Assembly (NCBI GenBank): GCA_003433295.1 | Contig: CP016202.1 | Coordinates: forward strand, 1,680,850-1,721,812 | DNA from: Eubacterium minutum ATCC 700079 | GTDB lineage: Bacteria; Bacillota; Clostridia; Peptostreptococcales; Anaerovoracaceae | Length of the DNA stretch: 40,963 nt | Direction of reading: 5' to 3' | Shown here: piece by piece, positions 2,239 through 6,249 of the stretch | Position numbering within the stretch: the stretch's first letter is position 1 | Layout of the letters: each line of letters begins with the position of its first letter | The notes under the pieces: model-generated | The model's input: only the letters and a program-made list of their open reading frames with translations | Told to the model about the DNA's origin: nothing | Database searches by the model: none | Translations under genes and position numbers: made by a program

Positions 2239-2634
2239 TTATTTGCGCTTCATTTCCTTAGGTGTAACGCAGGTTCCCGTCGCTCTTGCCACAATGATAG
2301 GCTCTTCGAGGAAATCAGCGGCGGATGCGTTGATGTCTTTTCTGGAAACGATGACCTTGCGTGCCTCAAAGGACATCTTTCGTGAAGAGTTTCCGATCTT
2401 TGTGATCTCGCCGTATGCCTCGATATAATCGCCTGCGAATGTAGGCGCCAGGAATTCGATGTTGTCGTATGCGCAGAACAGACCTTCGTCTCCGTCAAGT
2501 TTGATCAAAAGTTCCGTCGCAACGTCGCCGAACAGGTGTACCATGTGCGCCCCGTCAACCAGTTCTCCGCCGTAATGAGCATCCTTTGCGGACATCCTGA
2601 GGCGTAGTGTAGATGTAATTTTTTCTTCAGCCAT
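2239..2634 (-). CDS. kal: 3-aminobutyryl-CoA ammonia-lyase
   Basis: Removes ammonia from L-3-aminobutyryl-CoA to give crotonyl-CoA, a late step of lysine fermentation. The 131 residues match the small single hotdog-domain Kal proteins: [26 protein letters not shown], the [13 protein letters not shown] strand, [12 protein letters not shown] and the closing GTCVTPKE. The reading frame stays open far upstream, but ATG at 2634 is preceded by GGAG at seven bases and gives the family N-terminus. It reads away from the regulator and the main kam operon, from its own promoter at 2720-2748, so its expression can be set separately. Kal acts after Kce, which is not in the window. Confidence 0.92.
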
Positions 2635-2719: not shown

Positions 2720-2748
2720 ATTATAGTTATAAATACGGAGGCTGTAAA
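2720..2748 (-). promoter_or_regulatory. Sigma-A-type promoter for kal
   Basis: Read on the - strand: TTTACA at 2748-2743, a 17-base spacer, then a perfect TATAAT at 2725-2720. The leader to the kal ATG is about 80 bases. Confidence 0.75.
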
Positions 2749-2754
2749 TAACAT

Positions 2755-2783
2755 TTGCAAAACTTGGGGAAATGTTTTACCAT
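2755..2783 (+). promoter_or_regulatory. Probable promoter for the Kdd-like regulator
   Basis: TTGCAA, a 17-base spacer and TACCAT lie back to back with the kal promoter, the two -35 boxes being six bases apart. The -10 is weak, which would suit a regulator that controls its own level. GGAG precedes the ATG at 2839. Confidence 0.45.
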
Positions 2784-2838
2784 TGACGAAGAAAAGAGCG
2801 AACCGTTTTAGGTTCGATGAAAAAGGAGTGAAACAGAA

Positions 2839-4887
2839 ATGAGTCAATACGATGGCTTCGGGCAGACGCGCGTGCTTGAACCTCAACACGTCCTGCCGAC
2901 TTCGGCGTGGAAGTTGGACAACAGTCGTAATTTGGAATCCTTTGAAATGAGGGTTGATATACATAAAATACATATAGAGGGGACCAGCTTCAAACAGATC
3001 TGCCTTGAGGCGAACGACAACGACGAACGCATAAAACAGAAGATAATGGATATTGTCATACGACGCGGGAAACTCCATAACCCGGTGACGGATACGGGTG
3101 GGCTTTTTTTTGGCACCGTCAGCGAAATAGGCTCGGAGTATGAGAACGTTCTGAAGCTTAAGCCCGGTGACGAGATTATCTGCAATACATCCATGGCGTC
3201 CGTCCCGATCGGCATCGATAAGGTGAGTTCGATAGACAGAGCTTTCGGTCAGGTGGATGTGGAGGGTCACGCCATCGTGTACGACAAGATACCGGTGGTG
3301 AAGCGGAGCAAGGACGTAAACCTCAACCTGCTTCTGTATGCGCTGAACGAATCGGGAACCTTGCTGAAAGTGAGCAGCACCGCCGTGGGAAAGAGAAAAT
3401 TTCTCGTCGTGGGCAATAATAAACTTACGAATCTGTTTTTCGGTTATGCCATAAAAAAAGTCGCGAGGGAAGATGCCGAGATAATCTGTCTGCTCGACAG
3501 AAAGACGGAATCCATGCTTGGCGGAAGTTCCATGGACAGGCTGATGGACAGCGTGTTCTCGGAAGTGCGCATGGTAGACATATTGAAGCCGTTGGAATGC
3601 ATGGAAGAAATTCAGAAAAAGGCGCCGTTCGATCTGTCGGTTAACTGCGCGGATATACCCGGAGCGGAAACGATAAATATCCTGGCGACAAGGCAGGGCG
3701 GCACGGTTGTCTTTGCCAACCTGATAAATAACTACAACATTGCGCTCTATATAACGGAAGCGATTTCAAAACAGCTGGAGATAAAGTGTGCCGACGGCTT
3801 TGTGGCGTCGTATGAGAACTTCGACATAGACATAGTCAAAGACATAGCTCCGTACGTGGAGCGTGCCGTTGAGATGAACGTGAGATTCAACGATGACCCG
3901 GCGTATCCGATAAACAGGGAGAGCAGGCTCAGAGAGGTGTCGGGACAGCGGCAGACGATGCTGGAAGATTTTATCTGCGAGAGCAGAGCCATGGCGACGG
4001 TCCTCGATGAGATACTGACGGTGTCGAAATACGACTGCAATGTCCTTATAACGGGTGATACCGGCGTGGGCAAGGAGAATGTTGCAAACATCATCTATAA
4101 AAACAGCACCAGAAAGATGCAGCCGTTTATAAAAGTAAACTGCGCGTCCATAGCCTCCGAACGGCTCGAGGCGGATTTCTTCGGCATTGAGCGCGGCAGG
4201 AGCGGCTATTTTGAACGTGCCGACAACGGAACGATATTCCTCGACGATGTCGGTGAACTTTCCGCCGATATGCAGGCAAAACTGCTCAGAGCGATCCAGG
4301 ACGGTGAGTTTTTCAGAGTGGGCGGCACCGCTCCGGTCAAGACCAATGTAAGGATTTTGTCGGCCACCAACAGGAACATGGAGAACATGATAAGCGAGGG
4401 GGAATTCAGACGCGACCTGTATTATCGGCTGAACGTGGTGCACATACAGGTTCCGAAACTCAAGGAAAGAATCGGGGACATAGCCGCTTTGACACGGCAC
4501 TTCCTCGGCAAATACGGCAAAAAGTTCGACATGAAGAGAACCATAGACAGGGATGCGGTAGAGTATCTCAAGCAGTGTGACTGGCCCGGGAACATACGGG
4601 AATTTGAAAATACGATACAGCGACTTATGATAGGAACTCCGCGCAAGCAGATTACACTCATAGACGTTATGCGCGAGATGCACGGCGATGTATTTGAAAC
4701 TTCCTCGGGAAATTCGGAAAACATGCAGGAGGGGCAGGTTATGGATCTTGACAGGATGGTAAAGAACTTTGAGAAGAACATTCTGAAACACGCCTGCGAG
4801 CAGTTCGGCTCGACCAGGAAAGTCGCAAAAGCCGTGGGGATCAGTCAGACGCAACTCGTGCGTAAGAAGAAAAAGTACAACCTCTGA
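2839..4887 (+). CDS. Kdd-like sensor domain fused to NtrC-type AAA+ regulator lacking GAFTGA
   Basis: A 682-residue fusion. Residues 5 to about 350 are a paralogue of the dehydrogenase Kdd encoded just downstream: [18 protein letters not shown] (81-98) aligns with NPWTGSGGMLIGTVEEIG of Kdd, and GHAI is shared. The dinucleotide loop is lost: Kdd has VIGGGGKSG, this protein VVGNNKLTN (190-198). Residues about 368-600 are an NtrC-like AAA+ domain with Walker A GDTGVGKE (406-413), Walker [11 protein letters not shown] (465-474), sensor I around SATNRN, the arginine region [11 protein letters not shown] and sensor [12 protein letters not shown]. The sigma-54-contacting GAFTGA loop is deleted: FFGIERG runs straight into RSGYFE (447-459). 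Residues 645-682 form a Fis-type helix-turn-helix. It probably senses a pathway intermediate and controls kal and the kdd-kam operon at sigma-A promoters. This function is inferred; the domain reading is clear. Confidence 0.88.
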
Positions 4888-4993: not shown

Positions 4994-5044
4994 TGAACCG
5001 AAAATGAATCGTGATTGCCCCGCTATGAACCAAAAATGAATCGT
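4994..5044 (+). promoter_or_regulatory. Paired 19-bp direct repeats upstream of kdd (candidate activator sites)
   Basis: TGAACCGAAAATGAATCGT at 4994-5012 and TGAACCAAAAATGAATCGT at 5026-5044 differ at one base. Their start-to-start distance is 32 bases, close to three helical turns, so both face the same side of the DNA. The nearer copy ends 20 bases before a -35 box. This arrangement suits a dimeric or oligomeric activator; the Kdd-like regulator encoded next door is the obvious candidate. Confidence 0.55.
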
Positions 5045-5063
5045 AACAAGGATTGTCAAAAAA

Positions 5064-5118
5064 TTGCCAAGTGGCGACATCGGAAATTATAGACATGTTT
5101 TATAAAGAAAACTATAAT
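5064..5118 (+). promoter_or_regulatory. Overlapping sigma-A-type promoters for the kdd-kam-ato operon
   Basis: Two promoters can be read: TTGCCA (5064-5069), 17 bases, TTATAG (5087-5092); and TAGACA (5090-5095), 17 bases, TATAAT (5113-5118). The second has the better -10. I see no sigma-54 -24/-12 element (TGGCA-N7-TGC type) between 4888 and 5187. Confidence 0.65.
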
Positions 5119-5187: not shown

Positions 5188-6249
5188 ATGAAAAAAGGAA
5201 ATCCATACGGAACTCACAGAGTAATTTCACCAAAGGGTGTTCTACCGCAACCCGCTGATGTTATCGATAACGATATGGAGATCTATGACAACGAGATCAA
5301 GATCGCTGTCAAGACTCTCAACATCGACTCGGCATCTTTCACGTCGGTTGTGGATCATGCCTGCGGAAAGAAGCCAACAGATGATTTGTCGGCAGATGAC
5401 ATCGAAAAGATAAAGGAAACGATGCTGGGAATCGTGGCTAAAGCAGGTAAGCATAAGAACCCTTGGACAGGTTCCGGTGGAATGCTGATCGGTACCGTGG
5501 AGGAGATCGGGCCTGAATGGAAAGGTGACCTCAAGGTTGGGGACAAGATTGCAACGCTCGTGTCACTTTCCCTTACACCTCTTGTGATCGACGAGATCCT
5601 TGAGATGAGACCCGCTATTGATCAGGTTGATATCAAGGGACATGCGATCCTGTTCCAGAGCGGCATCTATGCAAAGCTTCCTGCTGACATGGAAGAAGGC
5701 CTTGCGCTCTCTGCGCTTGACGTTGCGGGAGCACCTGCTCAGACGGCAAAGCTTGTTAAACCGGGAGACACCGTTCTTGTAATCGGCGGCGGCGGAAAAT
5801 CAGGACTGCTCTGCCTCTACGAAGCAAAGAAGAGAGCGGGAGTTACCGGTAAGGTTATCTGTGCGGCGGGAACGCAGAGATCTGAAGACAGAGCCAAGAA
5901 CCTCAACCTTGCGGACGAGTACTTCCATATAGACGCTACCGATGCGGTTGGAATGTATGAGAAAATAATGGAGCTTACGGACGGTGAACTTTGCGATGTT
6001 GTAATCAACGTTGTAAACGTGGAAAATACCGAGATGGCTTCAATTCTCGCAACCAAAGACGACGGTCTTGTATACTTCTTCTCGATGGCTACGAGCTTCA
6101 CGAAAGCGGCACTCGGAGCTGAGGGCGTAGGTAAAGACGTAAATATGATTATAGGAAACGGTTACTGCAAGGGACATGCCGAGGTCACTCTGCAGGAACT
6201 GAGGGAAAACGAAGGCTTGAAGGATCTTTTCCGCAAGATGTATGCTTAA
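5188..6249 (+). CDS. kdd: L-erythro-3,5-diaminohexanoate dehydrogenase
   Basis: Oxidatively deaminates 3,5-diaminohexanoate to 5-amino-3-oxohexanoate with NAD(P)+, the third step of lysine fermentation. The 353 residues have an N-terminal catalytic part (YGTHRVISPKGVLPQPA, NPWTGSGGMLIGTVEEIG at 91-108, AIDQVDIKGHAI) and a Rossmann part with an intact glycine loop VLVIGGGGKSGLL at 196-208. AGGAGG lies nine bases before the ATG. It is the first gene of the rightward operon and the paralogue of the sensor domain of the regulator upstream, so enzyme and regulator probably bind related ligands. The downstream junction to kamA holds a strong hairpin. Confidence 0.92.
   Translation: MKKGNPYGTHRVISPKGVLPQPADVIDNDMEIYDNEIKIAVKTLNIDSASFTSVVDHACGKKPTDDLSADDIEKIKETMLGIVAKAGKHKNPWTGSGGMLIGTVEEIGPEWKGDLKVGDKIATLVSLSLTPLVIDEILEMRPAIDQVDIKGHAILFQSGIYAKLPADMEEGLALSALDVAGAPAQTAKLVKPGDTVLVIGGGGKSGLLCLYEAKKRAGVTGKVICAAGTQRSEDRAKNLNLADEYFHIDATDAVGMYEKIMELTDGELCDVVINVVNVENTEMASILATKDDGLVYFFSMATSFTKAALGAEGVGKDVNMIIGNGYCKGHAEVTLQELRENEGLKDLFRKMYA

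Follow-up and report, generated by a model that had tools for sequence, protein, structure and literature searches.

A Kdd-fold regulator beside the lysine fermentation genes kal and kdd and its probable repeated change from sigma54 to sigmaA-type promoters

To our knowledge, the passage of a bEBP from sigma54 remodelling to activation of the housekeeping polymerase is unclear, and a gene of Eubacterium minutum ATCC 700079 raises the question of how such a passage may proceed. In the window (the whole stretch of 40,963 nucleotides that was analysed), this gene sits between the divergent genes kal and kdd and heads a lysine fermentation cluster, which comprises lysine 2,3-aminomutase, KamB, KamC, both lysine 5,6-aminomutase subunits and two CoA-transferase subunits. 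We consider it likely that its product regulates kal and kdd, and that this regulator has repeatedly moved from a sigma54 remodeller to a fixed-distance sigmaA activator.

Domain architecture and the sensor fold

The regulator is a Kdd-fold N-terminal domain joined to a bEBP-type AAA+ domain and an HTH domain. The features of its frame are as follows.

2839..4887, plus strand: fusion regulator (Kdd-like N-domain, AAA+, HTH) of 682 aa in an open frame, defined by profile and structure matches
2839..3888, plus strand: N-terminal Kdd-fold domain, about residues 1-350, from the phmmer match to 7dl3 (residues 7-334) and an AF2 model
3412..3432, plus strand: degenerate dinucleotide loop GNNKLTN (residues 192-198), aligned with 77 Kdd sequences
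4054..4074, plus strand: Walker A GDTGVGK (residues 406-412), kept, by alignment
4177..4212, plus strand: loop 1 junction, site of the GAFTGA deletion (residues 447-458), by alignment
4243..4248, plus strand: Walker B acidic pair DD (residues 469-470), DE in 51/51 GAFTGA-bearing rows
4741..4884, plus strand: HTH_50 DNA-binding domain (residues 635-682), from Pfam

After the N-domain and a linker, Pfam places Sigma54_activat (PF00158, E 2.9e-54) at residues 379-537, AAA_lid_14 at 542-617 and HTH_50 at the C-terminus. The N-domain matches PDB entry 7dl3 with an E-value of 4.1e-23, and its AlphaFold model (pLDDT 90.6) is closest to the 3,5-diaminohexanoate dehydrogenase 7dl0 (Z 36.5, rmsd 2.8), in a match that spans the whole domain (335 residues). 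The four solved Kdd entries are the four top structural matches (Z 30.6-36.5), followed by a medium-chain alcohol dehydrogenase at Z 17.2; against the Kdd profile NF052381 the domain scores 135.4 bits, under the cut-off of 200. The original prediction, that the N-terminal 350 residues or so are a paralogue of Kdd, is thus borne out, and its reading of an enzyme paralogue reused as a sensor is supported by the fusion of this fold to AAA+ and HTH domains.

N-domain matches occur in 183/297 genomes of the order and in 32/391 genomes of the class at large, with few fused frames outside the family. The fetched loci contain 113 fusion frames, of which 63 form group A (including the window protein) and 50 are group B paralogues; two of the group A rows (one each from L096 and L097) belong to a neighbouring paralogue and serve as the outgroup. 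For 54 of the 63 group A rows, the fetched sequence also includes a downstream kdd gene in the same orientation. A contig scan with peptide patterns, partly taken from AAA+, matched mainly the AAA+/HTH part in all 80 loci selected. Outside the fusion counts stand L083 (G225; N-domain only, at a contig end), L139 (the window genome's own paralogue, with a run of N), L102 (G294; interrupted frame, GAFTGA present) and L147 (G196; a 400-aa N-domain frame only). Left out of the analysis were G288 (contig edge, L270), L267-L269 and L271, as well as G253 and G674 of the window's genus, which gave weaker or partial matches.

Two kdd-like genes, mostly in tandem, lie downstream of the regulator in L047-L057, L059, L064, L065, L071, L075, L076, L078, L084 and L093, which are GAFTGA-type loci plus some GAFTGA-less ones (L051, L052, L059). 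The group B loci L103-L153, with their 50 paralogous fusions, have an adjacent -24/-12 site in 36/50 cases. The window's genome itself has a second fusion (L003/L139, G000:C1, about 129,066-131,248) whose GAFTGA is intact and whose sequence includes a run of N. Downstream of it come a TGGCACG-N4-TTGCA promoter and what looks like an operon for GABA fermentation by the GABA-to-crotonyl-CoA route, with gene names assigned by reading: aminotransferase, 4-hydroxybutyryl-CoA dehydratase, CoA-transferase, permease and alcohol dehydrogenase. This paralogue may be a case of the Kdd-like sensor fold being redirected to other amino acids.

In the alignment with 77 Kdd sequences, GGGGKSG of Kdd is GNNKLTN in the regulator, as originally read; across the 63 group A fusions the first loop glycine G200 is retained in 97%, and the Kdd-invariant residues G202, K204 and G206 in 5%, 0% and 0%. 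For the ligand, one would most naturally think of an amino acid of the pathway, for instance 3,5-diaminohexanoate or its keto product, and we give this guess an even chance. Alternatively, the N-domain might still bind NAD(P)(H), or even act as a dehydrogenase, and so sense redox state or flux and not a metabolite. E307 and G320, which align with Glu310 of Kdd, the residue at the NADPH amide, and with its neighbour Gly323 (PMC9902596), are retained in 63/63 group A fusions, so that dinucleotide binding may persist despite the altered loop. Moreover, the further-out fusions L246 (G315) and L138 (G266) still combine a GANGKxG dinucleotide loop with one of the GAFTGA type; they are possibly the ancestral form of the sensor, and they suggest that an early form of it could bind a dinucleotide. 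The near-complete replacement of G202, K204 and G206, and the replacement of K306, G310 and H330 throughout group A (63/63), nevertheless make a present-day NAD(P)(H) sensor unlikely, and a pathway metabolite is the ligand that we prefer.

Loss of the GAFTGA loop among orthologues

In the window regulator, FFGIERG is joined directly to RSGYFE, GAFTGA being deleted, and no GAFTGA-type motif was found anywhere in the entire 682-aa frame, in agreement with the absence originally noted for the AAA+ domain. All 50 group B fusions and 48/63 group A fusions have a GAFTGA-type loop, which reads GAFTGA, GSFTGA or GTFTGA. The 15 group A proteins without it are those of the window, of six other genus members fetched, of three g3, three g4 and one g5 genome and of one g35 genome, and their loop 1 sequence differs between lineages.

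The changes were followed by parsimony on a tree built without the loop columns. Five changes were obtained, and five again after the addition of new g3, g4 and g35 proteins, a parsimony figure on a backbone that is partly open. A single clade of all 15 GAFTGA-less rows is rejected (AU p 0.0019), and one single ancient loss with it. The g4 proteins are sister to the GAFTGA-bearing g7 proteins on a branch starred in both trees, and L052 nests among GAFTGA-bearing g3 proteins, a placement starred in the first tree and not in the enlarged one. Since the GAFTGA orthologues mostly have predicted sigma54 promoters at the same two operons, these results point to the GAFTGA-less form as a derived state with more than one origin.

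That the loss is a by-product of the loss of sigma54 itself is rejected, as rpoN was found in 14/15 GAFTGA-less genomes of the first set, the window's own included, and in 11/12 of the second (25/27 in all; one, G724, as a fragment). The exceptions are G277 and G729; G277, a fifth g5 genome, is without GAFTGA, and no rpoN was found in its 90%-complete assembly. Overall, rpoN is present in 62/64 first-set genomes and in 13/17 of a later set, which repeats the two rpoN-less genomes. The presence of rpoN in most GAFTGA-less genomes suggests a change specific to the kal/kdd regulator in most cases.

In the window protein Walker A is retained, as are the residues that we take, after the assignment in PspF, to be the sensors and arginine fingers. 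The original statement that Walker A, Walker B and both sensors are kept therefore stands for Walker A and the presumed sensors; Walker B reads DD, not DE. This change is likely mild, because in PspF the E108D variant behaved on duplex DNA as the wild type does, though its ATPase activity was reduced (PMC4132715). In the first set, Walker B differs from DE in 11/15 GAFTGA-less rows versus 0/51 GAFTGA rows (48 of group A and three of group B), with DD in the window's genus and L063, NE in L051 and L059, and TE in L066; the presumed sensor I asparagine, present in the window protein, is lost in 8/15. The Walker A lysine is present in all 26 GAFTGA-less rows aligned. The ratio of AAA+ to N-domain divergence is 1.01-1.12 among GAFTGA-less pairs versus 0.77-0.92 among kept pairs, and HTH divergence relative to the N-domain is not faster among GAFTGA-less pairs, the pairs in both comparisons not being independent. 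We infer that ATP binding may stay useful, for example for the oligomer state, and that hydrolysis-driven remodelling would no longer be selected. In G277 (L066), from a genus that mostly has GAFTGA, the AAA+ domain is strongly altered, with TE at Walker B and changes at the finger and sensor residues. A pseudogene reading of the regulator is rejected in view of its open frame, the conservation of sensor and HTH, and the retention of the palindromes described below.

Promoter classes, palindromes and the proposed mechanism

The presumed targets and the predicted regulatory elements of the window are as follows, the start codon of kal being taken by reading the ORF listing.

2239..2634, minus strand: kal, 3-aminobutyryl-CoA ammonia lyase, divergent presumed target (NF052388, 186.9 bits, cut-off 160)
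2720..2748, minus strand: sigmaA-like kal promoter TTTACA-N17-TATAAT (-35 at 2743-2748, -10 at 2720-2725)
2755..2762, minus strand: TTTTGCAA, probable relic of the -12 half of an ancestral sigma54 kal promoter, as alignments suggest
2799..2816, no strand: candidate UAS CGAACCGTTTTAGGTTCG in the kal-regulator intergenic region, a perfect palindrome, from the palindrome scan
4994..5011, plus strand: candidate distal UAS upstream of kdd, TGAACCGAAAATGAATCG (10/12), from the palindrome scan
5026..5043, plus strand: candidate proximal UAS upstream of kdd, TGAACCAAAAATGAATCG (10/12), centred at -91 from the predicted start
5090..5118, plus strand: sigmaA-like kdd promoter TAGACA-N17-TATAAT (-35 at 5090-5095, -10 at 5113-5118)
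5188..6249, plus strand: kdd, catalytic paralogue and presumed target (NF052381, 243.3 bits, cut-off 200)

All promoters are predictions from sequence with our own weights, and starts were set seven bases after the -10 element or 12 bases after the -12 element. The window's kdd promoter scores 12.7, compared with a maximum of 9.1 in 20 shuffles, and its promoter block is conserved in seven aligned loci of the genus. The best -24/-12 scores of the window are only 4.7 at kdd and 3.0 at kal. The sigmaA-like character that had been ascribed to the local promoters is thus supported at both kal and kdd; no sigma54 promoter is seen in the sequence upstream of kdd, and the proposed loss of sigma54 contact gains support from the GAFTGA deletion together with the missing -24/-12 sites. 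A local role of the regulator is likewise favoured, as the genome has only one perfect copy of the palindrome, the one at 2799-2816 listed above; one-mismatch copies elsewhere in the genome fall in seven places, versus about six for a control pattern.

A second type of palindrome was observed between the proximal site and the -35 element of kdd: a Rex-like sequence, TTGTCAAAAAATTGCCAA, at 5053-5070 (11/14). It recurs with 10-11/14 matches at the matching place in L042-L046 of the same genus, and by alignment in L041, and the genome has a gene with a Rex-type DNA-binding domain (PF06971). Sites with 10-12/14 matches also occur at various places in GAFTGA-bearing loci, and a Rex link to the kdd promoter is suggestive only.

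Sigma54-type sites were scored between the fusion and kdd and upstream of kal, a score of at least 10 counting as a site; this threshold was chosen after seeing the first set and was fixed for the second set before its loci were fetched. The second set consists of 60 further family loci (48 with the motif, 12 without), hand-picked among the new genomes listed; among the matches listed, it includes seven new g3, nine new long-match g4 and one new g35 genome. In the first set, a site is found at kdd in 38/39 GAFTGA loci versus 0/15 GAFTGA-less loci (9/48 kept rows, with no kdd in reach, being left out) and at kal in 32/38 versus 0/14 (10/48 kept and 1/15 lost rows having no kal start). The GAFTGA scores range over 11.6-17.7 at kdd and 11.0-19.9 at kal, and the sole kdd exception, L087, scores 6.6. 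In the second set, the counts are 42/42 versus 0/7 at kdd, with 11/60 loci (five lost, six kept) left out for want of a kdd in reach, and 42/48 versus 0/12 at kal, where, unlike in the first set, 400 bases were scanned regardless of the kal start. A chance origin of these sigma54 promoters is rejected, since only 107/2700 randomised regions score at least 10. Conversely, the best sigmaA-like site below the kdd palindromes averages 11.7 in lost loci versus 6.9 in shuffles, and 7.1 in kept loci versus 6.4. Fisher tests ignore kinship, and the three well-supported independent pairs, in which kdd follows the expected direction in nearly all pairings and kal in 2.5/3 on average, are too few for significance. 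Among orthologues beside kdd, GAFTGA status is nonetheless a predictor of the predicted promoter class.

Both groups of loci share the 18-bp palindrome YGAACC-N6-GGTTCR, which is present in most of them between kal and the fusion and upstream of kdd and is probably the binding site of the regulator. Palindromes with at least 10/12 matches far exceed the shuffle expectation: 25 in 15 kdd regions of lost loci (14/15 have one; 0.20 expected), 15 in 14 kal regions of lost loci (13/14 have one; 0.25 expected) and 60 in 39 kdd regions of kept loci (0.70 expected). At kdd they are often paired 30-34 bp apart (21/22 spacings measured in GAFTGA loci); the window's pair, with 10/12 matches only, lies 32 bp apart at -91 and -123.

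The two groups differ in how these palindromes are spaced from the predicted starts. In GAFTGA-less loci, the proximal kdd palindrome is centred at -88 to -92 from the sigmaA start in 15/15 cases of the first set (sd 0.83) and at -90 to -92 in 7/7 new loci (22/22 over both sets), compared with 3/78 GAFTGA kdd loci (2/38 and 1/40, two of the 42 kept second-set loci giving no palindrome-to-start distance); the shuffle chance of this spacing is about 3-8% per locus. In GAFTGA loci, the proximal palindrome lies -298 to -61 from the sigma54 start of kdd (sd 46, n=36), a range in keeping with enhancers that act by looping. In L049, L072 and L274, all GAFTGA loci, a TATAAT near -90 is already present; two of the three belong to g3, where the -90 geometry may be partly inherited. 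At kal, the distance from palindrome to sigma54 start in GAFTGA loci is rigid (-62 to -64, n=31), so that presumably one protein works with two spacings there, rigid at kal and very variable at kdd.

In the mechanism that we propose, the protein would be a one-component regulator of lysine fermentation, with an altered Kdd copy as its sensor and, as its output, a bEBP-type AAA+/HTH module no longer acting on sigma54. It would probably bind the palindrome at one site for kal, perhaps serving its own gene as well, and, with a spacing of 32 bp, at two sites for kdd. From positions near -90 and -122 it would activate the sigmaA polymerase by direct contact at a fixed distance, which can be likened to class I activators. 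With Walker A kept, ATP is probably bound; its role may lie in oligomerisation and not in remodelling of the promoter. This would be a derived state, since at these two operons, where the palindromes are shared, its GAFTGA orthologues mostly face predicted -24/-12 promoters.

The same elements could also belong to a protein that mainly represses sigmaA promoters, or to a TyrR-like dual regulator, with the ligand releasing or converting it. Palindrome 2799-2816 ends 22 bp before the regulator's own start codon, which fits autorepression, and TyrR mainly represses (PMC4374768). This reading keeps some plausibility but seems rather improbable to us, given that the positions of the kdd and kal sites, near -90 and -122, leave the core promoter free, and that occlusion would not need a proximal spacing of -88 to -92 at kdd in 22/22 loci. 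Still less probable is that the GAFTGA-less forms are decaying bEBPs, with kdd and kal constitutively expressed from sigmaA promoters: loop 1, Walker B, sensor I and arginine-finger residues do vary or are lost among GAFTGA-less rows, and some of the branches are long, but the frames are open, the N-domain and HTH are conserved, and the palindromes are far above chance with a spacing tighter than in the kept forms. That the regulator still activates sigma54 through another loop at unseen promoters, for which rpoN in this genome and in 14/15 and 11/12 GAFTGA-less genomes might speak, is scarcely credible: neither kal nor kdd has a -24/-12 site, the genome contains a single perfect palindrome, and loop 1 differs between the GAFTGA-less lineages.

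For the sigmaA activator that we favour, the kal side offers possible intermediates. GAFTGA-less kal genes have a predicted sigmaA-like promoter, mostly TTTACA-N17-TATAAT or -TATACT, with the palindrome mostly at -90 to -106, more variable than at kdd. TTGCAA is kept at the matching place in 9/15 GAFTGA-less loci (counted by eye in alignments) and is probably a relic of the -12 half. A sigmaA-type kal promoter also occurs in some GAFTGA genomes: in four sampled g5 genomes, GAFTGA persists and kdd has a sigma54 site, but kal has none (scores 1.0-4.1) and shows a sigmaA-like promoter scoring 10.9-12.0 with the palindrome at -95 or -96, the score of L057 not exceeding the shuffle maximum of 11.4. 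If these promoters are functional, one protein serves both polymerases, with sigma54 at kdd and sigmaA at kal. The fuller claim is that, in one regulator lineage, a sigma54 enhancer system at kdd that tolerates varied distances gave way several times to a sigmaA system of class I with a fixed distance, with sensor and sites kept and with living intermediates such as a g5 protein serving both holoenzymes; in our view it is evenly balanced between right and wrong.

Comparison with known systems

TyrR, a GAFTGA-less relative that acts with sigma70, is a ligand-sensing one-component regulator with an ACT/PAS N-domain, and NtrC of Rhodobacter capsulatus and of Caulobacter carries a response-regulator receiver. 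Both NtrC proteins, together with VspR, are described as GAFTGA-less bEBPs acting with sigma70 (PMC10274813). The regulator resembles these NtrC proteins as an AAA+ bEBP in which the loop 1 motif is deleted, NtrC being reported on sigma70 promoters (PMC10274813); it differs in that its sensor is an enzyme fold, and in that GAFTGA orthologues beside the same operons let the regulator's change be followed together with that of the promoters. With no loop 1 motif and with predicted sigmaA-type promoters that have upstream sites, it shares the defining absence of the known GAFTGA-less bEBPs acting with sigma70 and appears to work like them.

With TyrR of Enterobacteria, the regulator has in common a similar HTH (the TyrR homologue 1g2h matches residues 631-681, E 0.0026) and a 6-6-6 box geometry, the TyrR box being TGTAAA-N6-TTTACA (PMC4374768). 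Its N-domain and its box sequence are different, and it scores 244.4 bits against the TyrR equivalog NF008085, below the cut-off of 576. Compared with Kdd (7dl0, 7dl1, 7dl3, 7dl7), it has the same N-domain fold at 22-23% identity, but its loop and many Kdd-invariant residues are replaced, and the domain is fused to AAA+ and HTH. The one-component sigma54 EBPs of Clostridiales are alike as ligand-sensing EBPs of amino acid catabolism in related bacteria (PMC6615313). In the survey of 490 such EBPs, section 5 names PAS, GAF, PrpR_N, ACT, CBS, V4R and other sensors, with none like Kdd among them, and the word lysine has no occurrence in the survey (PMC6615313). Among ranked results from one open-access library, we found neither a Kdd-fused regulator nor a replicated switch of this sort described, and no regulator of this type for lysine-to-butyrate fermentation, a pathway that matters in gut bacteria and whose own enzyme would here be reused as its sensor.

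Thus, bEBPs without the sigma54 loop are known already, singly. Here, the same gene stands beside the same operons in both states, in close relatives, with possible intermediates and with the probable half of an old promoter still visible, so that each step of the switch can be rebuilt and assayed. This natural series could show how a change of RNA-polymerase partner evolves with the DNA-binding sites kept.
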